Positions 25,619-39,134 of a stretch of DNA of 64,000 nucleotides are shown here, piece after piece; position 1 is the stretch's first letter; each line of letters opens with the position of its first letter. The translations under genes and the position numbers were made by a program. The notes below the pieces were generated by a model, which saw only the letters and a program-made list of their open reading frames with translations, ran no database searches and was not told the DNA's origin. Source of the stretch: Streptomonospora nanhaiensis (GTDB lineage Bacteria > Actinomycetota > Actinomycetes > Streptosporangiales > Streptosporangiaceae). Location of the stretch: NCBI RefSeq assembly GCF_013410565.1, contig NZ_JACCFO010000001.1, forward strand, positions 3,596,001-3,660,000, given 5' to 3'.

Positions 25619-26356
25619 TCAGCCGGTCGGCCCCTCCGGCCGCACCGTCCGACGGCGCCACAGCCACACCACGTCGCGCCCGAACGACCAGCACAGCAGC
25701 GCGAGCGCGGCCCCGGCGGCCGCTGCCCCCGCCGGCGGGGGCAGCACCCCGGCGGCCAGCACCACCAGCACGACCCCCTGCACCGCCGCGACCGCCTTGC
25801 GCGCCGTCGAGTGGGGCAGCGGCGCGCGCAGCCACGGCAGCGCCCGGCCCGCCCCGGCGAACACGTAGCGCATCGCGCCGATGGCCAGCACCCAGGGGCC
25901 CGTCGGCCCCGCCGCCGCGTCCGCGCTGAGCAGCAGGAGCAGCACGGAGTCGACCTCCATGTCGAACCGCGCCCCCAGCGGCGACTCCGTGCGGGTGCAC
26001 CGGGCCACCCGGCCGTCGAGCGCGTCCAGCGCCAGGGCCGACGCCGCCAGTGCCACCAGCACCCACCGCGCTCCGCCCGGCTCCGCCGCCAGGCCGCCCG
26101 CCAGCGCGTCGGCGACCAGGGCGGCTACCCCGCCCACCAGTACGGCGCGCACCAGGGTGACCACGTCGGCGGGTCCGAACGTGCCGCCCGCGCGCCGCAG
26201 CGCCGCGCCGAGGGTCAGCCACAGGACGAGCGCGTAGCCGGCGCCCGCCGCGCCGCCCGCCGGTCCCAGGCCGGGCCACGCCCACAGCGCGGCGGCCGAC
26301 CCCGCCACCGCCAGGGCCGCCAGCCCCGGCGCGCGGCGCGCCGCGACCCCGCCCAC
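25619..26356 (-). CDS. CDP-alcohol phosphatidyltransferase-family membrane enzyme
   Basis: The 245-residue protein has six or more hydrophobic segments and the complete family signature D-X2-DG-X2-AR-X8-G-X3-D-X3-D in [18 protein letters not shown] and RFDMEVD. Such enzymes move an alcohol onto a CDP-activated group in the membrane. GTG 26356 is the only standard start in the right area, but it lacks a ribosome binding site; GGGGAGG sits six bases before an in-frame ATC at 26422. It is divergent from the dehydrogenase and shares its cluster, which suggests a non-housekeeping lipid product. Confidence 0.85.
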
Positions 26357-26547
26357 GCCGGTGGCCGGGCCGCCGCGCGCGGCGCCCGTGCGGCCCGCGC
26401 GCCGACCTGTGCTCTCGCCGATGGCCCGCCTCCCCGCGTATGACCGGGATCACCTTGCACCAGGTATCGTACCGAGCGGCGCCGGATTCGGCCCGGTCCG
26501 CGCCCCGCTGAGCCCCGGCGGACGCCGCACGAGGAAGGGGGCCGCCC
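26357..26547. promoter_or_regulatory. divergent promoter region of the GTP-derived cluster
   Basis: This 191-base stretch lies between the CDP-alcohol transferase and dehydrogenase genes. A TATCGT/TACGAT-like element around 26466 could act as a -10 in either direction. GTG 26548 has GAGGAAGGGG upstream. Confidence 0.35.
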
Positions 26548-27525
26548 GTGCCCGAAGCACGCGCCTACTGGCTGCGCCGGCCCGGCCACGGCGCCGTCGA
26601 GCCCGTCGACCTGCCCGATCCCGGCCCCGGCGAGGTGCTGGTGCGCACCCGCTACTCGGCGGTGAGCCGGGGCACCGAGGGCGTGGTGTTCCGCGGCGGC
26701 GTGCCCGAGAGCCAGTACGACGCCATGCGCGCGCCGTTCCAGGAAGGCGACTTCCCGGGCCCCGTCAAATACGGCTACCTCAACGTCGGCGTGGTCGAGC
26801 GCGGCCCCGACCACCTGCTCGGCCGCACCGTCTTCTGCCTCTACCCCCACCAGACCCGCTACGTGGTGCCGGCCGAGGCGGTGACCCCCGTGCCCGCCGA
26901 CGTCCCGGCCGGGCGCGCCGTGCTGGCCGGCACGGTCGAGACCGCCGTCAACGCGGTGTGGGACGCCGCGCCGCTGATCGGCGACCGGATCGCGGTGGTG
27001 GGCGCCGGCATGGTCGGCGCGAGCGTCGCGGCGGTCCTGGCGGGGCTGCCCGGCGCCCGCGTCCAGCTCGTGGACGTCTCGCCCGACCGCGCCGCCGTGG
27101 CCGCCGCGCTGGGGGTGGACTTCGCCGCACCGGAGGACGCCGCCGAGGACTGCGACCTGGTCGTGCACGCCAGCGCCACCGAGGCGGGGCTGCGGCGCTC
27201 GCTGGAGCTGCTGGCCGCCGAGGGTACGGTCGTCGAGCTGAGCTGGTACGGCGACCGCACCGTCAGCCTGCCGCTGGGCGCGCACTTCCACCCGCGTCGG
27301 CTCACCGTGCGCGGCAGCCAGGTCGGCACCGTCTCGCCCGCGCGCGGCGCGCGGCGCGGGTTCGCCGGACGGATGGAACTCGCCCTGCGGCTGCTCGCCG
27401 ACGACCGGTACGACGCCCTCATCACCGGGGAGAGCCCGTTCGAGGAGCTGCCCGAGGTGCTGCCGCGCCTGGTCGGCGGCGACCTGCCGGGGCTGGCCCA
27501 CCGCGTCGCCTACCCGCCGGACTGA
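26548..27525 (+). CDS. MDR-superfamily dehydrogenase (BchC-like, no zinc site)
   Basis: The 325-residue protein has a GroES-like N-terminal domain and a Rossmann motif [15 protein letters not shown] near residue 149. Instead of the Cys-rich zinc site it reads [16 protein letters not shown], as in BchC-like MDR enzymes. An NAD(P)-dependent alcohol oxidation or ketone reduction is likely. Followed after 83 bases by the PTPS-like gene. Start GTG 26548 has GAGGAAGGGG upstream. Confidence 0.85.
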
Positions 27526-27608
27526 CCGCCGGCCCCGGCCGCCCCCGCTCGACCGACCACCGCCCGCTTAGACCCGCCGACCCACCACGACCCCACTCGG
27601 GAGCAGCC

Positions 27609-28007
27609 TTGTTCAGCATCACCGTCCGCGACCACGTCATGATCGCCCACAGCTTCCGCGGCGCGGTCTTCGGCCCGGCGCAGCGGCTGCACGGCGCCAC
27701 CTACGTCGTGGACGCCACGTTCCGCCGGCCCGAACTCGACGCCGACAACCTGGTCGTGGACATCGGCCTGGCGACCCGCGAACTCGCAGCGGTGCTGGGG
27801 GAGCTGAACTACCGCAACCTCGACGAGGAGCCCGACTTCGCCGGCGTGAACACCTCCACCGAGTTCTTGGCGCGGGTCGTGGCCGACCGCCTGGCCGACC
27901 GGATCGCGGCCGGGGCCCTCGGCGAGGGTGCGCGCGGGCTGACCGCGCTGGAGGTGACGCTGCGGGAGTCCCACGTCGCCTGGGCCACCTACGAGCGCGG
28001 CCTGTGA
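27609..28007 (+). CDS. divergent 6-pyruvoyl-tetrahydropterin synthase (PTPS/QueD)-like protein
   Basis: The 132-residue protein has the family length and framework ([35 protein letters not shown], and a closing [10 protein letters not shown]). However, the usual zinc motif HGH is HGA, the catalytic Cys of the loop is absent (VFGPAQ), and the DH pair before LN is NY. The two other His (IAHS and RLHG) and the C-terminal Glu remain. Binding of a pterin-like ligand is plausible; normal PTPS chemistry is not. TTG 27609 follows GGGAG by five bases. The stop overlaps the glycosyltransferase start. Confidence 0.8.
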
Positions 28008-29155
28008 GCCCCCAGCGCGGCCCCGACCCGCACGGGATGCACGGGATGCACCAGGTGCACGCCGTGCTGCCCGGCGGGGTGGACGACCTCGCCTCGCCCA
28101 GCGGCGGCAACGCCTACGACCGGCACGTCTGCGCGGGCCTTGCCGCGCGGGGCCGGCCGGTGCGCCGCCTGGTCCTCTCCGGCGCCTGGCCCCAGCCCGC
28201 ACCCGCCGACCGGGCGCGGCTGGACCGCGAACTGGCCGCGCTGCCCGACGGCGCCCTCGTCCTCGCCGACGGCCTGGTGGTCTGCGGTGTGCCCGAGGCC
28301 GTCGTGCCGCACGCGGCCCGCCTGCGGCTGGTGGTCGTGGCGCACATGCGGCTGGCCGACGAGACGGGACTGCCCCCGGACACCGCCGCCCGGCTCGACG
28401 CGGCCGAGCGCGCCGTACTGCGGTCGGCCGCCGCGGTGGTGGCCACCAGCGGGTGGGCCGCGCGCCGCCTGGCCGCCCACCACGGCCTCGCGGCCGACCG
28501 GGTGCACGTCGTCGCGCCGGGCACCGCGCCCGCGCCGGTCGCCGAGGGCACCGACGGGCGCACGCGGCTGCTGTCCGTCGCGGCCGTGACTCCGCGCAAG
28601 GGGCACGACCTGCTGGTCGACGCCCTGGCGCGGGTGGCCGACCGGCCGTGGGAGTGCGACTTCGCCGGTCCGCTGGACCGCGCCCCCGAGCACGTCGCCC
28701 GGCTGCGCGCCGCCATCGCCCGGCACGGCCTGGCCGGGCGCGTGCGGCTGCGCGGCCCGCTGGCCGGCGCGGCGCTGGAGGACGCCTACGCCGCCGCCGA
28801 CCTCGCCGTGCTGGGCTCGCGCGGCGAGACCTTCGGCATGGTGGTCGCCGAGGCGCTGGCCCGCGGCATCCCGGTGCTCGCTCCGGGTCTGGACGCCCTG
28901 CCCGACACCCTGGGCCGCGCGCCCGACGGAACGGTCCCCGGAATCCTGGTGCCCGCCGCCGATTCCGCCGCGCTGGCCGAGGGCCTGCGCGCGTGGCTGG
29001 ACGGCGCCGCGCTGCGGCGGCGGCTGCGGGGTGCGGCCCTGGCCCGGCGGGGAATGCTGGAGTCATGGGAGGAGGCGGTGGCGCGCATGGACCACGTCCT
29101 GGACACGGTGGCCGGGCGGCCGCGCCCCGACGCGGCGCGGGAGGCGGCCGGGTGA
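28004..29155 (+). CDS. GT4-family glycosyltransferase
   Basis: The 383-residue GT-B-fold protein has an N-terminal acceptor domain ([20 protein letters not shown]), then the donor domain with [19 protein letters not shown] and the EX7E motif [17 protein letters not shown] near 270-285. It transfers a sugar from a nucleotide donor; the acceptor is unknown and may be the cluster's heterocycle or a lipid. GTG 28004 overlaps the PTPS stop (GTGA); a [10 protein letters not shown] stretch at the start is odd. It overlaps the methyltransferase by four bases. Confidence 0.88.
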
Positions 29156-30825
29156 GCCCCGGGTTCGCCGAGTGGCTGGCGCTGCGCGAGGCCGCCGACG
29201 CGGCGGCGCGTTCGGCGGACCTGCTGCCGGCGCTGCGCGCCGCCCTGCCCCCGGCCGGAGGCGGCCCGCTGGTCGTGCACGACCTCGGCTGCGGCACCGG
29301 GTCGATGGGCCGCTGGCTGGCGCCCGCGCTGGTCGGCCCGCAGCACTGGGTGCTGCGGGACCGCGATCCCGGCCTGCTCGACCGCGCGCGGGCCGACCTG
29401 CCGCGCGCGGGCGGCGGCGGCGCGCCGGTCACGGTGGAGGTGCGCGCCGGCGACCTCACGCACCTGCGCCCGGCCGACCTCGCCTCGGCCGACCTGGTGA
29501 CGGCCTCGGCCCTGCTGGACCTGCTGACGGCGGCGGAGGTGGCGGCGCTCGCCGAGGTCTGCGTCGCGGCGGGGTGCCCGGTGCTGTGGAGCCTGTCGGT
29601 GGTGGGCCGGGTGGAACTGGACCCGTCCGATCCACTGGACGGCGCGATCGCGGCGGCCTTCGACGCCCACCAGCGGCGCGCCGACGGCGGCGGCCGCCGC
29701 CTGCTCGGCCCCGACGCGCCCGCCGCTGCGGCGGCGGAGTTCCGCCGGCGGGGCGCTCGGGTGACGACGCGCTCCAGCCCGTGGCGGCTGGGGCCCGGCG
29801 ACGCGGCGCTGACCGCGGAGTGGCTGCGGGGGTGGGTGGCCGCCGCCGTGGAGCAGCGCCCCGACCTCGCCCCCGCGGCCGGCGCCTACCTGCGCGACCG
29901 GTTGGACCTGTGCGCGCGGGGCGGCCTGCGGGTGGTGGTGCACCACAGCGACCTGCTGGTGCTCCCCGCACCCGGCGGAGCTGCCGGCCGCGCCCCCGCC
30001 GCGCGGACACGCGCGTCGGCGGTCGCGGCGGTCGAGGGGACCGCGGCGGTCGAGGTCGAGGCGACTGTGAGCGGCGCGCCGGAGCCGGCGGCGGGCGCTC
30101 CCGCTTCCGGGTTGGCGGAGGGCGCACCGCGAGCGGTGCTCCCCGAGGCACCTGGGACAGCGGAGACGCGTCTCCAGTGGGCGGCGAGCACGAGCGCTCC
30201 CAGCGCGGCGGAGGGCGTGCGGGCGAACGCGGCAGGAGCCGAGTCCCCCGGAACGGCAGGCGCACGAGTCCAGACGGCGGCGGGCACGGTCACCCCCCGG
30301 TTGCCGGAAAACGGGTCGAGGACGGCGGGCACGGCCGCCCGCAGCACGACGGGGCACGCGCGGAAGGCGGCGACCGCCGGGGCCGCCCGAGCGGCGGGCG
30401 CCGCGAACACCTCGCACCCAGACGGCCGGGAGGCACCGGACGCAGGACCTCCCACGGCAGCGGGCACGGCCACCCCCGGCACGGCGGAGGGCGCGTGGCG
30501 GGCCGCGAGGGCTGAGGCCCCGAGGGCTGTTGGCTCGGCGGGAGCCCTGGAGACGACGACGCCGCACTCGGCAGGTCCGGCCGACACCCCGGGACCGGCA
30601 GACGGCGAGGTCCCGTGCGCGGTCGGCGCGCGGACGCCCGGGGCGGCAGAAACCGTGCCGCGAACGGTCCGTGCGGGCGTTTCCGGGATGCCGGAAGGGG
30701 ACCCGGAGGCCGCGAAGGCCGGGACCCTGGGGGCGGCGGGCTCGGCGGTATCGGCGGACGCAGACGTTCGGGAGACACCGGGCGCGGGCGGCTCCGGCAC
30801 GGCGGAGGGCGTGCCGGGGCCGTGA
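29152..30825 (+). CDS. class I methyltransferase with a long Ala/Gly/Thr-rich tail
   Basis: The 557-residue protein has a methyltransferase domain in residues 1-280: VVHDLGCGTGSMGRWLA near residue 40, LRDRDPGLLDRARADLP, LVTASALLDLLT and VVVHHSDLLVLP. The remaining ~275 residues are low-complexity, with repeated short phrases such as PGTAE, GTAEG and AAGT, and a lower GC3 than the rest. Motif I and the acidic loop suggest SAM binding. The stop overlaps the following membrane-protein start (GTGA), so the tail is kept in frame by coupling. Confidence 0.8.
   Translation: MSPGFAEWLALREAADAAARSADLLPALRAALPPAGGGPLVVHDLGCGTGSMGRWLAPALVGPQHWVLRDRDPGLLDRARADLPRAGGGGAPVTVEVRAGDLTHLRPADLASADLVTASALLDLLTAAEVAALAEVCVAAGCPVLWSLSVVGRVELDPSDPLDGAIAAAFDAHQRRADGGGRRLLGPDAPAAAAAEFRRRGARVTTRSSPWRLGPGDAALTAEWLRGWVAAAVEQRPDLAPAAGAYLRDRLDLCARGGLRVVVHHSDLLVLPAPGGAAGRAPAARTRASAVAAVEGTAAVEVEATVSGAPEPAAGAPASGLAEGAPRAVLPEAPGTAETRLQWAASTSAPSAAEGVRANAAGAESPGTAGARVQTAAGTVTPRLPENGSRTAGTAARSTTGHARKAATAGAARAAGAANTSHPDGREAPDAGPPTAAGTATPGTAEGAWRAARAEAPRAVGSAGALETTTPHSAGPADTPGPADGEVPCAVGARTPGAAETVPRTVRAGVSGMPEGDPEAAKAGTLGAAGSAVSADADVRETPGAGGSGTAEGVPGP
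30030..30822 (+). repeat. degenerate GC-rich repeats within the methyltransferase tail
   Basis: Short phrases such as GGCACGGCGGAGGGCG recur near 30478 and 30796 with weaker relatives near 30113 and 30206. The tail DNA looks like diverged minisatellite-type units that keep the reading frame open. Confidence 0.45.
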
Positions 30826-31883
30826 GCGCGCGGGTGCGGGCCTGGAGCCGGCTGGTCATCAGCGCGGGGATTGTGGCGCTGCTGGCATGGCGGCTGGGTG
30901 ACGACGCGCTGCGGGCGGGCCTCGCGGCGCTCGGCCCGGGGCCGGTGCTGGCCGCGCTGGCGATCGGCGCGGCGACCACGGTGTGCAGCGCGGGGCGCTG
31001 GACGGTGGTGGCGCGCGGACTGGGCCTGCGGCTGCCGTTCCCGGCGGCTGTGGCCGACTACTACCGGGCGCTGCTGCTCAACTCGGTCCTGCCCACGGGC
31101 GTCCTGGGCGATGTGCACCGGGCGTTCCGCCACGGCCGCCGAGTGGGGGCCACGGGACGGGCGGCGCGGGCGGTGCTGCTGGAGCGCCTGGCCGGGCAGG
31201 CGGTGCTGATCGGCGCCGCCCCGCTGGTGCTGCCGACAGCCGCACCGGCGGTGGCGGCCGTCCTGGGCCGGGCGGAGCCGCCCGGCCCCGCGGGAACGGC
31301 GGTGCTCACCGGTGCGGCGGTGGTCGCGGGCGGCGCGCTGGTCTGGGCCGTGTCCGGCGGGCACGGGCGGCGGCTCGCCCGGACGGGGGCGGCGGTCGTC
31401 CGGGAGGCCCGCGCGGTCGCGTGCGCGCCCAGGATCTGGCTCGGTGTCCTCGGCCTGTCGGCGGTGGCGCTGGCGGGGTATCTCGCGCTGTTCGTGGTCG
31501 CCGCCCGGGCGGTGGGCGCGCAGGCACCGGTTCCCGTGCTGCTGCCCGTCCTGGTAGCGGCCCTCATGGCGATGAGCGTCCCGGTGGGCTTCGGCGGCTG
31601 GGGTCCGCGCGAGTCGGCGGCGGCCGTGGGGTTCGCGGCGGTGGGCCTCGACGCCGCCCAGGGGTTCGGCGCCGCCGTGGCCTACGGACTGCTGGCCCTG
31701 GTGAGCACCCTGCCCGGCGCGGGCGTCCTGCTGGCGGACCGCCTCCGAGACCGGCACCCACACGGCCATGGCGATCGCCACTCGAACCCGTACCGGCACC
31801 GGCGGCGGTCGGAGGACTCCGCGCGGGAGGGCACACGCGAGACGGCCGGAGAACAGCCGTCCGCCCCGACGCGCCGGTCCTGA
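30822..31883 (+). CDS. UPF0104 / lysylphosphatidylglycerol-synthase-type membrane protein
   Basis: The 353-residue integral membrane protein has about eight helices. Signature segments are RWTVVARGLGLRLPFPAAVADYYRALLLNSVLPTG, VHRAFRHGR, LLERLAGQ and MSVPVGFGGWGPRESAAA, all typical of UPF0104/AglD-like and LPG-synthase membrane domains (flippase- or transferase-like). The soluble aminoacyl-transferase domain of true MprF is absent. Its place after the glycosyl- and methyltransferase suggests handling of a lipid-linked product. A hydrophilic His/Arg-rich tail ends the protein. Confidence 0.85.
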   Translation: MSARVRAWSRLVISAGIVALLAWRLGDDALRAGLAALGPGPVLAALAIGAATTVCSAGRWTVVARGLGLRLPFPAAVADYYRALLLNSVLPTGVLGDVHRAFRHGRRVGATGRAARAVLLERLAGQAVLIGAAPLVLPTAAPAVAAVLGRAEPPGPAGTAVLTGAAVVAGGALVWAVSGGHGRRLARTGAAVVREARAVACAPRIWLGVLGLSAVALAGYLALFVVAARAVGAQAPVPVLLPVLVAALMAMSVPVGFGGWGPRESAAAVGFAAVGLDAAQGFGAAVAYGLLALVSTLPGAGVLLADRLRDRHPHGHGDRHSNPYRHRRRSEDSAREGTRETAGEQPSAPTRRS

Positions 31884-32974
31884 CGGCGTTACGGCTGGGT
31901 GACGTGGGGACGGCGGCGCGACGCGACGCCAGGGCGTTGCAGCCGACAGGTCGGCAAGGGGAGCCGCCGGTTCTGTAGGCGGTGCTTGGGCCGCGACGGG
32001 GCGCCAAAGGCAGCGGGTGCCGGGCCCGGCGGGCAGCGGTGCCGTCGGCGGCGGCTGGTGTTTGCGACGAGGCGGCAACGGAAGCGAGCGGCCAGGCTCG
32101 GCGATCACCGCTGATCACGGCGGACGGCGGGGGTCGCGACGGAAGGGCGCCGAAGCCGGGTGGGTGGTTGAGCCCGGCGGTGCTCGAAGCCCGTGGCGGG
32201 TGGTTGAGGCGCGGACGGCGCTGAGCGCCACCACGCGCGGCTCGGCGGGCAGCGGCTCCCGGCTCCAAACGAACCGGGTGACGAGAATCGCAATATCGTT
32301 GGCACACCAGGACGCCATTTGAGGTGTTTGTCTGTTTTAAGACGCGCACAGCGGCCGAGATGGTGGACCCCTGACCCTATCCGGCCTGATTGTCCACACC
32401 GTGAGACGCCTTGGAGCCTTCGGGCACCCTTTTTTCCCATATGTCCTTTTCTTTCGGCGACGATCTCGCGTTTTCAACGGGCGGGACGACCGTGGATGCT
32501 AGATCGTCGCAGCGGGCGCCCTTATGTCTCACATGGTGAGACAAACAGGGGTACGCAAGCGCTTTCCCATGCCCTGGGCCGGGCGGGCCGATGCGGAGGG
32601 CGGAATCGTCGCCGGATCGCGGCCCCGACCACCGGCCAGGGGGCGCGACCGCCCTGCCAACCACCAACGGATCGAGGACCGGCGCGCCCGGCCACCCACT
32701 GCCGTTGCCGCCGCGTCTCGACCCGGCGCCCGCCAACGGAACCGCCGACCGCCGAGCCCCGCCACCCGCCGCCGTCGACACAGGCCAACGCCGAGGGGCA
32801 TCACCGTCAACACCAAGCTCGCCCCCCGCCGCCGTCGGCGCCACCGTCGCGGCCGACGCACCCCATCTCCGGAGCCGATGACCGCGACGCCCGGCCGCCC
32901 GCCGCCCTCGCCGCCCCCGCCCCCGTCCCAGGCCCGGTACGCCGCGCACACCCGTATCCGCACCCGTCCGCGAG
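31884..32974. other. 1.1-kb stretch without a convincing gene
   Basis: No reading frame here has actinobacterial codon pattern or a recognisable domain. About 32280-32530 is notably AT-richer (with CCTTTTTTCCC and TTTTCTTTC-like runs); 32600-32960 is C-rich. An inverted repeat lies at 32525-32543. It separates two convergent genes of the cluster and may hold terminators, a degenerate gene or an unrecognised RNA. Confidence 0.5.
32525..32543. repeat. 8-bp inverted repeat TGTCTCAC-ATG-GTGAGACA
   Basis: A perfect palindrome with a three-base centre lies in the AT-richer part of the gene-free stretch. CCGTGAGACGCC near 32399 resembles one arm. It could be an operator or the stem of a small RNA; no associated promoter is clear. 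Confidence 0.5.
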
Positions 32975-33703
32975 CTAGGAGTCCTCCAGGGCTCGGCGGT
33001 AGGTCTCGAACGCCCGGACCAGGGCGGACAGCGCCGCCTCGCCCTTCTCGGCCGTGGCCAGGGACGGGCGGCCGACCACGCCCGACGGCGTGTACGCCTC
33101 CAGTCCGAGGGTGAGCATGTGGCGGCGGTCGCCGGTGAGGTGGTCGGCTGACGTGTAGTCCTCCCCCACCAGGTGGGGGTGGGCGTGGAGGAGGATCGAG
33201 GTCTCCAGCTCCCCGGCGTGCATGTCGGCGTCGTTGGTGGTCAGCACGCCGGCGGACGTACGGGCGTCCGCCCAGTCCTCGAACGCCGGGAACAGCGCCA
33301 TGCGGTGGCCCAGCCGGTTCACCTCCTGGACCAGGTTGCCCAGCACGTAGTTGCCGCCGTGGCCGTTGACCAGGACCAGCCCGGTGGCGCCGGACGCCCG
33401 CACCGACTCGGCGATGTCGCGTACCAGCGCGTACAGGGTCGCCGCCGACACGCTGACCGTTCCCGGCCACGCCGCGTGCTCCTGGGAGCAGGAGAACGCC
33501 ACCGGCGGCAGCACGCGCAGGCCGTGGGCCTCGGCGATCTCGGCGGCCAGGGTGGCGGCGATGACGGTGTCGGTGGCCAGCGGCAGGTGCGGGCCATGCT
33601 GCTCATGGCTGCCGATGGGTAGCAGGGTGAGTCCGGCACCGCGTGCCCGCACGTCCGACGTCGTCTCCGTCGGCAGCGCGAAGGCGGTGGGGGCGTACCG
33701 CAC
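32975..33703 (-). CDS. creatininase-family amidohydrolase (ArfB/MftE-like)
   Basis: The 242-residue protein has every family motif: LLPIGSHEQHGPHLPLATD (metal Glu, His and Asp), VLVNGHGGN and DMHAGELETS. Members include creatininase, mycofactocin MftE and the archaeal formamide hydrolase ArfB, which deformylates the FAPy product of GTP cyclohydrolase III. The last role suits the neighbouring GTP cyclohydrolase (inference). GTG 33703 follows GGAGG at longer-than-usual spacing. It is divergent from the cyclohydrolase gene. Confidence 0.88.
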   Translation of the reverse strand: MRYAPTAFALPTETTSDVRARGAGLTLLPIGSHEQHGPHLPLATDTVIAATLAAEIAEAHGLRVLPPVAFSCSQEHAAWPGTVSVSAATLYALVRDIAESVRASGATGLVLVNGHGGNYVLGNLVQEVNRLGHRMALFPAFEDWADARTSAGVLTTNDADMHAGELETSILLHAHPHLVGEDYTSADHLTGDRRHMLTLGLEAYTPSGVVGRPSLATAEKGEAALSALVRAFETYRRALEDS

Positions 33704-33833
33704 CGGTGGTCACCCCCTCCGCTCGAACGCCGCCGCCCGGCTCACGGCGTGATCGCCAGGGGGCATCCCCTGGCCGCGCGGCGGCCGGGCGAACGTGGAA
33801 ATCCATGGGCAAGCCTACCGTGAGGACGTTCAC

Positions 33834-34577
33834 ATGGCGCAGGACAGCAAGACGCCGCGCGGCGGTCACCGCGGCATCGATCCCTCCGACATCGCGGAAT
33901 CCGACCTGGTGACGACGCGCGGGACCTTCCGCATGGTCGCGTTCCGGGCCGACGGCGAGGAGCATCTGGCCCTCGTGTACGGCCGGGCGCGCGGGCGCGA
34001 CGGCGTGCTGGTCCGGATGCACTCCGAGTGCCTGTCCGGTGACGTGTTCGGCGCACTGCGCTGCGAGTGCGGCAGCCAGCTCGACCTGGCGCTGAACGCG
34101 ATCGTGCGCGAGGGCAGCGGTGTCCTGGTCTACCTGCGCGGCCACGAGGGGCGGGGCATCGGACTCGTGGACAAGGTGCGGACCAACCTGCTGCAGGACG
34201 AGCGCGGCCTGGACACGGTCGACTCCGCCACCGCGCTCGGCCTGCCGGTCGACGTGCGCGACTACGGCCCGGCGGCGCGGGTCCTGGCCTACCTGGGCAT
34301 CGGATCGGTGCGGCTGCTGTCCAACAACCCCCACAAGATCCGCTCCCTGGAGTCGCACGGGATCCGGGTGGCGGCGCGCGTGCCGCTGCTGGCGGCGCCC
34401 AACGACGAGAACCTCGCCTACCTGACCGCCAAGCGCGACCGGCTGGGCCACGACCTGCCGCAGGTGCCCATGGTGCCCGCCCCGCGCGAGCGCGCGGAGC
34501 CGGAGGGCGCGGCGGTGCTGGACGACGCCGCGGCGACGGCCCCGAGCCCGCTGTCGGGCACCCCGCTCACCCCCTGA
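33834..34577 (+). CDS. GTP cyclohydrolase II paralogue with altered active site
   Basis: The 247-residue protein has the zinc cysteines Cys66, Cys77 and Cys79 (HSECLSGDVFGALRCECG), YLRGHEGRGIGL, and NNPHKIRSLESHGI. Aligned with E. coli RibA, K101-I-R-A-Y105 becomes K114-V-R-T-N118, so the tyrosine required for loss of formate is asparagine. A paralogue in S. coelicolor with methionine at this position was reported to release the formylated pyrimidine FAPy. The gene is therefore probably not for riboflavin. ATG 33834 follows GAGG. A Pro/Ala-rich tail ends the protein. Confidence 0.88.
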   Translation: MAQDSKTPRGGHRGIDPSDIAESDLVTTRGTFRMVAFRADGEEHLALVYGRARGRDGVLVRMHSECLSGDVFGALRCECGSQLDLALNAIVREGSGVLVYLRGHEGRGIGLVDKVRTNLLQDERGLDTVDSATALGLPVDVRDYGPAARVLAYLGIGSVRLLSNNPHKIRSLESHGIRVAARVPLLAAPNDENLAYLTAKRDRLGHDLPQVPMVPAPRERAEPEGAAVLDDAAATAPSPLSGTPLTP

Positions 34578-34798: not shown

Positions 34799-35434
34799 TC
34801 ACACTCGGCGCACGCGGGCCAGCCACGCCGCCTGGTCGACGGGTTCGCCCGGGGTGAGGCCCAGGGAGTCGGCGACCCCCTCGATGGCGATGCACCGGTA
34901 GCGGGCCGGGCGCAGCTCCTCCAGTTCCCAGCCCTCGCCGAAGGCGTCGCGGATGACGGAGTCGCTGATGCGCGGGCCGAACCCGGGTTCGGCGTCGGAC
35001 AGGGCGAGCACGTGCACCACCCCGCCGGGGCGGCACACCGCGTGCAGGTTGCGGACGTATTCGGCGCGGTCGTCGGGGTCGCTGAACACGTGGAACAGGG
35101 CGCTGTCGACGACGGTGTCGACCCGGCGCCCGGATTCGGCGAGCGCGAAGGCGTCGGCCACCTCGAACCGGGCCTCGACGCCCTTCTCGGCGGCGTTGGC
35201 GCGGGCGAGTTCGACGGCGCGCGGCGCGAAGTCGAATCCGACGACGTCGTAGCCGAGCCGCGCCAGGTGGATGGTGTGCTCACCGGTGCCGCACCCGGGG
35301 TCGAGCACGGTGCCGGTGATCGCTCCGGCGCGCTCCAGGGCGACGACCTCGGGCTGGGGTTCGCCGATCACCCACGGCGCGGACCGGTGCTGGTAGGCGG
35401 AGTCGAACAGGTCGGCGGGCAGGGCGCCGGACAT
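34799..35434 (-). CDS. class I SAM-dependent methyltransferase
   Basis: The 211-residue protein has motif I VLDPGCGTGEHTIHLARLG near residue 42, GFDFAPRAVELARANA, and VVDSALFHVFSD. It resembles the thiopurine-like/TehB group; the target is unknown. ATG 35434 follows GAGGAG. It is convergent with the cyclohydrolase gene, with 221 bases between; no evidence places it in that cluster. Confidence 0.85.
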   Translation of the reverse strand: MSGALPADLFDSAYQHRSAPWVIGEPQPEVVALERAGAITGTVLDPGCGTGEHTIHLARLGYDVVGFDFAPRAVELARANAAEKGVEARFEVADAFALAESGRRVDTVVDSALFHVFSDPDDRAEYVRNLHAVCRPGGVVHVLALSDAEPGFGPRISDSVIRDAFGEGWELEELRPARYRCIAIEGVADSLGLTPGEPVDQAAWLARVRRV

Positions 35435-37592: not shown

Positions 37593-39134
37593 ATGCTCAA
37601 CCTCGCCGTCCTGCTGGAGGACAGCGCCCGCAACAACCCCGACCGCGTCGCCCTCGTCCAGGGCGACCTGCGCGTCCCCTACGCCATGCTCGACGCGCTG
37701 GCCAACCAGGTGGCCAACCTGCTGGTGGCGCGCGGCGTCGGCCCCGGCGACAAGGTCGCGCTGGCGTGTCCGAACCTGCCCTACTTCCCGGCCGTCTACT
37801 TCGGCGCGCTCAAGGCGGGCGCGGTGGTGGTCCCGCTCAACGTGCTGTCGCAGGCCCGCGAGATCGCCTACTTCCTGGAGGACTCCGACGCCAAGGCGCT
37901 GTTCTGCTTCGAGGGCACGCCCGAACTGCCCCTGGGCCGGCGCGGCAAAGAGGCGTTCGACGCCGCGCCCAAGACCGAGCACTTCCTCGTGCTCCCGGCC
38001 GCGCCGCTGGCCACCGAGTCCTCCATCGAGGGCGCGGAGACCCTGTGGGCCGCCCTCGACGGCGTCTCCGACCGGTTCGAGTCCGTGCAGACCCGCGCCG
38101 ACGACACCGCCGTCATCCTCTACACCAGCGGCACCACCGGCCGCCCCAAGGGCGCCGAGCTGACGCACCAGAACATGCTGATGAACGCGATCGTCTCCGA
38201 CGAGATGACCGAGCGCTCCCCCGAGGGCGACGTCACCCTCTCGGTGCTGCCGATGTTCCACTCCTTCGGGCAGAGCTCGGTGATGAACGTCGCCGTGCGC
38301 CGCGCCGGGACGCTGGTGCTGATGCCGCGCTTCGAGCCGGCCGAGGCGGTGGAGCTGATGCGCCGGGAGAAGGTCACGATCTTCGCCGGGGTGCCCACCA
38401 TGTACTGGGCGATGCTGTCGGCGGTGCGCGCCGGCGGCCTGGAGGTGCCCACCACCCTGCGCACGGCGGTATCGGGCGGCTCGGCCATGCCGCTGGAGGT
38501 GCTCAAGGACTTCGAGGCGACGTTCGGCGTGCGGATCCTGGAGGGCTACGGCCTGTCCGAGACCGCGCCCACGGCCAGCTTCAACCAGCCGCACCGGCCC
38601 ACCAAGCCGGGCTCGATCGGGTTCCCCATCTGGGGCGTGCAGATGAAGCTGATCGACCACGACTGGAACACGGTCGAGGGCGAGGGCCCCGGCGAGATCG
38701 CCGTGCGCGGCCACAACGTGATGAAGGGCTACTACAACCGGCCCGAGGCCACGGCCGAGGTGATACGCGACGGCTGGTTCCGCACCGGCGACATCGCCCG
38801 GCGCGACTCCGACGGCTACTACTACATCATCGACCGCGCCAAGGACCTCATCATCCGGGGCGGGTTCAACGTCTACCCGCGCGAGGTCGAGGAGGTCCTG
38901 ATGACCCACGAGGCGGTCTCGCTCGCGGCGGTCGTGGGGGTGCCGCACGAGACCCACGGCGAGGAGGTCAAGGCGTTCGTGGTGCGCGAGCCCGGCGCCG
39001 CCATCACCGAGGAGGAGCTGGTGGCGTGGTGCCGGGAGGCCATGGCCGCCTTCAAGTACCCGCGGATCGTGGAGTTCCGCGACGAGTTGCCGATGAACGC
39101 CACCGGCAAGATCCTCAAGCGGGAACTGCGCTAG
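37593..39134 (+). CDS. long-chain fatty acid-CoA ligase (AMP-binding)
   Basis: The 513-residue protein activates a carboxylic acid as acyl-AMP and then acyl-CoA. It has the AMP-binding loop YTSGTTGRPKGAELTHQN near residue 180, the A5 motif GYGLSETAP, the A7/A8 motifs RTGDIARRDSDGYYYIIDRAKDLIIRGGFNVYP and the catalytic lysine motif NATGKILKREL at the C-terminus. Length fits medium/long-chain ligases. ATG 37593 follows GGAGGAGGG. It lies 137 bases downstream of the broken SDR and converges on a TetR gene. Confidence 0.93.
   Translation: MLNLAVLLEDSARNNPDRVALVQGDLRVPYAMLDALANQVANLLVARGVGPGDKVALACPNLPYFPAVYFGALKAGAVVVPLNVLSQAREIAYFLEDSDAKALFCFEGTPELPLGRRGKEAFDAAPKTEHFLVLPAAPLATESSIEGAETLWAALDGVSDRFESVQTRADDTAVILYTSGTTGRPKGAELTHQNMLMNAIVSDEMTERSPEGDVTLSVLPMFHSFGQSSVMNVAVRRAGTLVLMPRFEPAEAVELMRREKVTIFAGVPTMYWAMLSAVRAGGLEVPTTLRTAVSGGSAMPLEVLKDFEATFGVRILEGYGLSETAPTASFNQPHRPTKPGSIGFPIWGVQMKLIDHDWNTVEGEGPGEIAVRGHNVMKGYYNRPEATAEVIRDGWFRTGDIARRDSDGYYYIIDRAKDLIIRGGFNVYPREVEEVLMTHEAVSLAAVVGVPHETHGEEVKAFVVREPGAAITEEELVAWCREAMAAFKYPRIVEFRDELPMNATGKILKRELR

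Follow-up and report, generated by a model that had tools for sequence, protein, structure and literature searches.

Introduction

Single members of the gene set studied here are known from Streptomyces coelicolor. The set consists of eight genes at positions 25619-34577 of a 64,000-nt stretch of Streptomonospora nanhaiensis DNA (NZ_JACCFO010000001.1, assembly GCF_013410565.1, 3,596,001-3,660,000 of the forward strand; genome size 6.28 Mb), in the following called the window; all coordinates are positions within this whole 64-kb stretch. The genes encode a CDP-alcohol phosphatidyltransferase family membrane protein (CDPOH), a zinc-less medium-chain dehydrogenase/reductase (MDR), a protein of the 6-pyruvoyltetrahydropterin synthase fold (PTPS), a family-4 glycosyltransferase (GT4), a methyltransferase (MT), a flippase-like membrane protein (LPG), a creatininase-family amidohydrolase (CREA) and an altered GTP cyclohydrolase II (GCH2). 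The PTPS protein matches SCO6650 of S. coelicolor (PDB 3d7j) over its full length (1e-68). An earlier structure study of SCO6650 (2008) is said to have found neither zinc nor PTPS activity. For SCO6655, an earlier study (Biochemistry 2006; cited in PMC3509567) reportedly attributed the formation of a formylaminopyrimidine to the replacement of a Tyr by Met. The locus number of SCO6655 fits the gene order of the window relative to SCO6650, and an excerpt of PMC2853524 gives the gene as GTP cyclohydrolase II.

Related chemistry is known from riboflavin synthesis. BrbF, an annotated creatininase of Sinorhizobium, has been shown to deformylate the same formylaminopyrimidine intermediate (excerpt of PMC9478397), and GTP cyclohydrolase IIa/III is established as a different enzyme family for the opening of GTP (introduction of the same article). 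A literature search, judged by titles and abstract starts among the matches listed, yielded no product assigned to the gene set. The present analysis adds a set that crosses domains, a Tyr/creatininase switch, a link to RibD and a joined CDPOH-sulfatase protein. We conclude that the genes represent a real, widely conserved and uncharacterised pathway, whose early steps are well supported.

Conservation of the gene set in actinobacteria

Relatives were collected by scanning named genomes with a PTPS alignment. This confirmed at least 586 relatives, of which the best 80, mostly from Streptomyces, were kept. Order and strands of the eight genes (CDPOH-, MDR+, PTPS+, GT4+, MT+, LPG+, CREA-, GCH2+) are identical to the window in 63/80 actinobacterial loci. 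Gene presence per locus was called by tblastn (at least 50 bits) for 79 loci (L030-L108), 35 whole-genome loci and a further set of 15. Since the loci were located via PTPS or MDR searches, only the recurrence of the other genes is informative. Within the 79 loci, MDR, MT and CDPOH are found in all 79, GT4 in 78, LPG in 75, GCH2 in 71, CREA in 70 and RibD in 16. The respective numbers for the 35 whole-genome loci are MDR 35, GT4 35, LPG 29, CDPOH 27, MT 25, GCH2 21, RibD 14 and CREA 10. When both actinobacterial sets are pooled, MDR is present in 114/114 and GT4 in 113/114 loci. As a background, the same queries (12 families) were applied to 19 random 20-kb stretches, which gave zero matches. 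That is, the co-location of the eight genes is beyond chance, and the comparison of neighbourhoods across actinobacteria, named as a check by a preceding reading of the window from its letters (the sequence-only reading), is passed strongly.

Some details define these counts. The queries for RibD, sulfatase, inositol monophosphatase (IMPase), a second MT and the L132 and L139 proteins were drawn from loci that are themselves counted. L029 and L011 represent the same species, and neither has GCH2; L029 was omitted from the gene-presence table and the tree, but kept in the order count and in the 131-locus scan given below. The near-copies L134 and L142 were both retained.

Exact 4-base overlaps recur as well, namely for PTPS/GT4 in 80/109 loci, GT4/MT in 57/103 and MT/LPG in 48/98. 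GT4 and MT are fused in L112; a second apparent fusion of this kind was dropped since it spans masked sequence. The set is accessory, i.e., the PTPS profile matched 45/296 genomes of the class (2 of them weakly), and 5/6 genomes of the genus carry the PTPS gene. Same-genus genomes without GCH2 and CREA at the locus, which show that the eight genes are not inseparable, could be taken to suggest chance neighbours with unrelated jobs. This explanation is already contradicted by the kept order, the empty controls, the fused proteins and the cross-domain core, and we consider it practically untenable.

Proposed opening of GTP and deformylation

The window's GCH2 matches the GTP cyclohydrolase II family and has its zinc Cys at the positions of E. 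coli C54, C65 and C67 when aligned with E. coli RibA. In GTP cyclohydrolase II, the equivalent of Tyr105 is needed for formate release. Of the genome's two GCH2 genes, the one in the window encodes Asn131 here (KVRTN), whereas the genome's housekeeping RibBA keeps the Tyr (KLRAYRLQ). The enzyme had been read as altered from the outset, and this residue bears it out.

We read the residue at this position from the alignment with E. coli RibA, and again from the tblastn matches, in a scan of 131 loci, 97 of which have GCH2. The residue is Met in 64 loci, His in 15, Asn, Gln and Leu in one each and Tyr in 15. A creatininase-family gene is present in 82/82 non-Tyr loci (gene calling had missed CREA in 16 of them, and tblastn recovered it in 16/16). 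The Tyr loci, on the other hand, comprise 0/15 with CREA and 15/15 with a RibD_C match. Three later loci (L187, L199, L202) likewise combine a Tyr GCH2 with no creatininase match, where L187 lies on a 3.8-kb contig. Both states occur within Pseudonocardia: L037 and L077 have His together with a creatininase, and L076 has Tyr with RibD and is without a creatininase. This partition points to a route from GTP via the formylaminopyrimidine to 2,5-diamino-6-ribosylaminopyrimidinone phosphate and often on to its ribityl form. The opening of GTP by GCH2 with subsequent deformylation by CREA, as already suggested by the sequence-only reading, is thereby well supported as a predicted pair of steps.

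CREA shows the motifs GSHEQHGPH, NGHGGN and DMHAGELET and scores 109 bits with the NCBIfam creatininase model (cut-off 235). A mycofactocin role was considered and rejected, given that the MftE cut-off is missed and that the other seven genes belong to no mycofactocin family by Pfam/NCBIfam. The GCH2 and CREA pair is evidently dispensable. Each of the four same-genus genomes that bear the core without it yields a single GCH2 match, at 52-55% identity and within a long RibBA-like frame, and none yields a close CREA.

We know of no riboflavin role for MDR, PTPS, GT4 or MT. A spare riboflavin or flavin-precursor branch, feeding synthesis or secretion under some conditions, would nevertheless account for GCH2, the creatininase-type deformylase and the RibD-type reductase, all of which are riboflavin-type steps (excerpt of PMC9478397). 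Such a branch is very improbable in our view: by Pfam, none of the eight genes encodes a deaminase, a lumazine synthase or a riboflavin synthase, and the relatives, in what was not a full survey, add one RibD-like deaminase candidate (L021 alone) and, by eye, TadA-like genes beside L028 and L110. Furthermore, the genome has a separate RibBA, and the expression of SCO6655 in S. coelicolor opposes the predicted riboflavin flux (r = -0.61; excerpt of PMC2853524). Housekeeping riboflavin or queuosine roles are likewise judged unlikely because the genome has a QueD-like gene carrying the usual motif as well as the RibBA; the sequence-only reading had held that a housekeeping riboflavin or folate role would leave the membrane enzymes unaccounted for.

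RibD-type reductase

A RibD_C domain is found in 13/82 creatininase-type loci, namely in L021 and in 12 loci where RibD lies between LPG and CREA. Of these 12 genes, which stem from the best 80 loci, 7 are clear of LPG and 5 overlap its end by 3-180 bases. GCH2 and RibD_C are fused in L111 (by Pfam) and L112 (by sequence reading). The RibD_C protein of L117 scores best with the model of the archaeal 2,5-diamino-6-ribosylaminopyrimidinone 5'-phosphate reductase (113 bits, cut-off 186), an enzyme that acts before deamination. A reduction of the ribosyl to the ribityl form is thus supported in relatives as a probable step. Unlinked RibD homologs in cluster-bearing genomes were not counted as evidence, since such reductases may be general in actinobacteria.

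Occurrence outside actinobacteria and further loci

In plasmid records, MDR adjoins PTPS in alpha- and gammaproteobacteria and in haloarchaea. The order MDR-PTPS-GT4, followed by an annotated methyltransferase, is found in Thiodictyon, Agrobacterium, Rhizobium, Peteryoungia, Halomicrococcus, Haladaptatus and the actinobacterium Microbacterium. Natronorubrum shows the same order with one opposite-strand gene inserted, and in Haloarcula sinaiiensis the fourth gene is annotated as hypothetical and reads as a methyltransferase by eye. No GT4 gene directly follows PTPS in L131, L133, L134 and L142. In three haloarchaea, Haloarcula GH36, Haloarcula halophila and Natrarchaeobaculum, MDR is preceded by a gene for GTP cyclohydrolase IIa. 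The GH36 protein, the one tested, exceeds the NCBIfam cut-off, and the Natrarchaeobaculum MDR has no PTPS gene beside it. A 'RibD family protein' is present in 7/8 proteobacterial loci examined, Neorhizobium being the one without.

We also searched the phylum, where 74/197 genomes matched. Of 14 loci examined, 5 have MDR, 1 ended at PTPS, and 8 without MDR were not counted as cluster members. In L188-L191, four genomes of one family outside the class, RibD, MDR, PTPS and GT4 adjoin one another on a single strand.

Several neighbours of these clusters were recorded. An annotated cytochrome b gene is part of 4/8 proteobacterial clusters (L128, L130, L132, L202), which hints at a redox-active membrane product; the L130 protein matches a b561 model under its cut-off. 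IMPase-type genes adjoin the cluster in L013, L014, L017, L018, L023 and L133, and L111 has a HAD-type gene next to it (by eye); either type could remove a 5'-phosphate. The Haloarcula plasmid clusters L139 and L203 each have, within a few kb of MDR, a creatininase-family gene that is a candidate archaeal counterpart of CREA (the L139 gene was counted via its own sequence and scores 77 bits against the window's CREA). The MDR of L139 is also adjoined by a gene that matches Sulfatase weakly, a candidate archaeal sulfatase-fold partner. We set aside L136, on a Streptomyces anthocyanicus plasmid, as a different context: its SCO6650-type PTPS gene is an orphan, surrounded by MEKHLA-domain and cupin genes and with no MDR.

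Core enzymes

PTPS and MDR had been described from the letters as a divergent PTPS-like protein and a zinc-less dehydrogenase, and both descriptions hold. Where the genome's QueD-like protein shows CARLHGHS and LDHYYLN, the PTPS protein has AQRLHGAT and LNYRNLD, i.e., it is without the catalytic Cys, the third zinc His of the HxH motif and the Asp-His pair. H14, H28, E85 and E120 are invariant in 18 aligned bacterial and archaeal proteins, of which the four haloarchaeal members keep H-x-H. We take Glu120 to be the pterin-anchoring Glu of the T-fold. The nearest PTPS in a named record, among the best 80 of at least 586 relatives, is that of S. mangrovi (93%). Besides the QueD-like and the cluster copy, the genome holds a third PTPS-family gene (G000:C1:5904211-5904660).

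For MDR, Pfam reports no ADH_N (PF08240) match, and GAGMVG is found at 152-157. SRGTE and KYGYL stand where the canonical zinc ligands are expected; both were placed by eye. The BchC model gives 38.7 bits (cut-off 291). Nearest to an AlphaFold2 model of MDR (predicted local distance difference test, pLDDT, 86.8) are solved folds of threonine, idonate, alcohol and polyol dehydrogenases, with sorbitol and xylitol dehydrogenases and acryloyl-CoA reductase lower among the first 50 matches (template modelling, TM, ~0.7-0.8). Given these folds and the missing zinc ligands, our guess is that the ribityl chain may be the substrate of MDR and that ring closure may fall to the T-fold protein.

GT4 has an EX7E motif at 275-283, and its nearest solved relatives are Tll1590, an inositol-phosphate glycosyltransferase and PimA. 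MT shows DLGCGTG at 44-50 and ends in a lineage-specific, low-complexity tail of ~270 aa rich in Ala, Gly, Glu and Thr (29990-30825). Among seven loci compared, the tail occurs only in the window and in S. mangrovi, where it is shorter (451 aa protein); it is missing in three other same-genus loci, and MT homologs mostly have 255-410 aa.

Membrane end

CDPOH carries the complete motif D..DG..AR(8)G...D...D (aa 111-136), the catalytic motif of CDP-alcohol phosphatidyltransferases. Its NCBIfam matches, which might have indicated the acceptor alcohol, have 22 and 20 bits and are far below the cut-offs. LPG exceeds the Pfam PF03706 cut-off and has 7 hydrophobic segments, as expected for a multi-span membrane protein. 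In L116, one protein comprises a CDPOH domain and a region that matches Sulfatase weakly (22 bits, cut-off 25); the Sulfatase match in L124 is weak as well (26 bits, same cut-off). In rhizobia, CDPOH, flippase-like and sulfatase genes form one block, and CDPOH is annotated in 5/8 haloarchaeal loci. Taken together, the motif, the L116 protein, the rhizobial block and the haloarchaeal CDPOH favour a lipid-linked product. We regard such a link as likely but unproven.

A sulfatase-fold gene accompanies 5/79, 12/35 and 3/15 loci of the three sets. These genes and the L116 protein would also fit a GTP-derived compound on an envelope polymer, where CDPOH and a sulfatase-fold transferase, which we take to be LtaS-like, transfer phospho-headgroups onto a glycan or a polymer of teichoic type; so would the MdoH glucan synthase gene that adjoins MDR in L129 and L138. 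However, no sulfatase-fold gene was found in 74/79 of the best-sampled loci, nor is there one among the window's eight genes, and haloarchaea are not known to have such cell walls. We consider a polymer-bound product quite improbable.

Proposed pathway

The reading we put forward, with a confidence just short of an even bet, is that the eight genes form one pathway, which would build a glycosylated, methylated pteridine-type headgroup, derived from a 2-amino-4-oxo-pyrimidine, from GTP, link it to a phospholipid and carry it across the membrane. First, GCH2, being without the Tyr for deformylation, would open GTP to 2-amino-5-formylamino-6-ribosylamino-4(3H)-pyrimidinone 5'-phosphate, and removal of the formyl group by CREA would leave the 2,5-diamino compound. 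Reduction of the ribosyl to the ribityl form would then be the task of a RibD-type reductase, which the clusters of many relatives encode and which an unlinked gene would have to supply here. The resulting side chain would be reworked, and the ring closed, by MDR together with the zinc-less PTPS-fold protein. More specifically, oxidation at C2' might lead to the ketone that GTP cyclohydrolase I reaches as its Amadori product, and this ketone could condense with the freed 5-amino group. GT4 would add a sugar and MT a methyl group. Finally, CDPOH would couple the product to a CDP-lipid and LPG would flip the lipid, with a sulfatase-fold transferase possibly acting outside in some taxa. Pteridine formation, glycosylation, methylation, lipid attachment and flipping are here predicted from protein families and gene linkage. 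The sequence-only reading had outlined a similar sequence of events and is supported overall, with the order of the later steps, the pterin ring and the lipid link resting on inference. Its eight-gene set stood; the RibD-type reductase and the sulfatase-fold partner, absent here and frequent in relatives, lay outside its view.

A number of observations weigh against this proposal. The window has no RibD match of 60 bits and no linked RibD, and 63/79 loci of the best-sampled set are without a linked RibD as well. GCH2 and CREA are at the locus in 1/5 cluster-bearing genomes of the genus and missing there in the other four. CREA scores 36.8 bits with the ArfB model NF033501 of NCBIfam (cut-off 180) and is nearer to MftE (TIGR03964, 137.2 bits), also below the respective cut-off of 172. 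The Tyr and CREA labels are clustered on a tree of MDR and PTPS (76 rows, 51 of them labelled, including the archaeal L139, which has no GCH2): at least 4 changes are needed compared to a shuffled mean of 13.1, and at least 2 are forced by well-supported branches, such that the 97 loci are not independent events. Alcohol oxidation by a zinc-less MDR would be unusual, the more so with acryloyl-CoA reductase among the nearest folds.

The remaining objections concern loci with few genes. L028 and L110, in the stretch examined, and likewise L201 show MDR, PTPS and GT4 only, and the matches in L188-L191 are limited to RibD, MDR, PTPS and GT4; the lipid enzymes and GCH2 are therefore not always linked to the core. 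In addition, CDPOH is not listed in 3/8 haloarchaeal loci. The loci reduced to MDR, PTPS and GT4 keep a soluble product alive, i.e., a glycosylated pteridine or pyrimidine serving as cofactor or secreted metabolite, with GT4 as the last essential step and the membrane enzymes as lineage-specific exporters or with a separate envelope job. In favour of such a product are also L188-L191 and the whole-genome loci, of which 10/35 gave no MT, 6/35 no LPG and 8/35 no CDPOH. Against it stand the near-constant presence of CDPOH (79/79) and LPG (75/79) in the best-sampled set, the haloarchaeal CDPOH annotations and the L116 protein; moreover, contig ends and unlinked gene copies account for some of the gaps. 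We hold a soluble product to be conceivable yet doubtful.

If the lipid-linked reading is true, the product would be a new membrane component derived from GTP. As the core is kept in actinobacteria, proteobacteria and haloarchaea, the product is probably used by these organisms. The furthest-reaching version, which we deem unlikely as a whole, is that bacteria and haloarchaea share an unrecognised class of membrane lipids with a GTP-derived glycosylated pteridine headgroup. In this class, the Amadori step of GTP cyclohydrolase I would be replaced by a reduction and a subsequent oxidation (RibD-type reductase and MDR) together with a zinc-less T-fold cyclase. The front end would switch between one enzyme (Tyr GCH2) and two (non-Tyr GCH2 plus a creatininase-family deformylase, or GTP cyclohydrolase IIa).

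A place to look for a phenotype is suggested by S. coelicolor, where SCO6652 is raised in the second mycelium by log2 4.3 (48 h) and 4.1 (72 h), i.e., ~17- to 20-fold (Table 3 within an excerpt of PMC3610822). By its position between SCO6650 and SCO6655, SCO6652 would be the cluster's methyltransferase, which makes aerial growth and sporulation a sensible stage to study.

Gene layout of the window

The features are listed in Table 1. The sequence-only reading had named all eight genes with coordinates that are exact or within a few bases, and 8/8 gene products exceed their Pfam cut-off. It had also noted five genes on the same strand from 26548 to 31883 (MDR, PTPS, GT4, MT, LPG), four of which overlap by four bases. 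This agrees with the layout: PTPS/GT4, GT4/MT and MT/LPG each overlap by exactly 4 bases, which makes three overlaps among four genes, while MDR is separated from PTPS by 83 bases.

Table 1. Features of the gene set, given by position in the 64-kb window.
Feature	Position	Strand	Remarks
CDPOH, CDP-alcohol phosphatidyltransferase family membrane protein	25619..26356	-	245 aa; Pfam CDP-OH_P_transf 45.3 bits
MDR, zinc-less medium-chain dehydrogenase/reductase	26548..27525	+	325 aa; Pfam ADH_zinc_N 35.3 bits
PTPS-fold protein, SCO6650 type	27609..28007	+	132 aa, TTG start at 27609; Pfam PTPS 82 bits
GT4, family-4 glycosyltransferase	28004..29155	+	383 aa; Pfam Glyco_trans_1_4 78.8 bits
MT, class I S-adenosylmethionine (SAM) methyltransferase, domain ~aa 1-285	29152..30825	+	557 aa; Pfam Methyltransf_25 37.8 bits
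LPG, LPG_synthase_TM / UPF0104 membrane protein (flippase-like)	30822..31883	+	353 aa; Pfam 87.5 bits
LPG-CREA interval without convincing gene	31884..32974	.	sequence and gene calls; ~1.1 kb
CREA, creatininase-family amidohydrolase, proposed formylaminopyrimidine deformylase	32975..33703	-	242 aa; Pfam Creatininase 212.7 bits
GCH2, altered GTP cyclohydrolase II, proposed to stop at formylaminopyrimidine	33795..34577	+	260 aa; Pfam GTP_cyclohydro2 193.6 bits

By eye, the LPG-CREA interval contains an AT-richer patch at ~32290-32550. Downstream of the set, a second methyltransferase (34799-35434) and an acyl-CoA-ligase-like gene (37593-39134) are discernible by eye; both recur with the cluster in the same-genus loci L011, L019, L022 and L025.

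Comparison with known systems

The front end follows the logic of the archaeal riboflavin entry (GTP cyclohydrolase III, ArfB and a reductase) and of BrbF in Sinorhizobium, i.e., a formylamino intermediate, a separate deformylase and a 2,5-diamino reductase (excerpt of PMC9478397). Three haloarchaeal loci with GTP cyclohydrolase IIa strengthen this likeness. In contrast to that entry, the eight genes continue with MDR, PTPS-fold protein, GT4, MT and membrane enzymes instead of deaminase, lumazine synthase and riboflavin synthase.

With QueD and 6-pyruvoyltetrahydropterin synthase (COG0720), the window's PTPS protein has the fold, the family and the Glu120 position in common. It differs in the catalytic Cys, the Asp-His pair and the third zinc His, whereas the four archaeal members keep the H-x-H. 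The glycosylation steps of mycothiol (MshA) and phosphatidylinositol mannoside (PimA) synthesis use the fold of GT4. Here, the best NCBIfam match of GT4 is MshA with 61 bits, far under the cut-off of 462, and no partner genes of these pathways are among the eight. As for LtaS-like sulfatase-fold transferases and CDP-alcohol transferases, the pairing differs from the window in that its eight genes do not include a sulfatase-fold gene and the Pfam Sulfatase matches in relatives are weak; the resemblance lies in those relatives that join CDPOH with a sulfatase-fold membrane protein.

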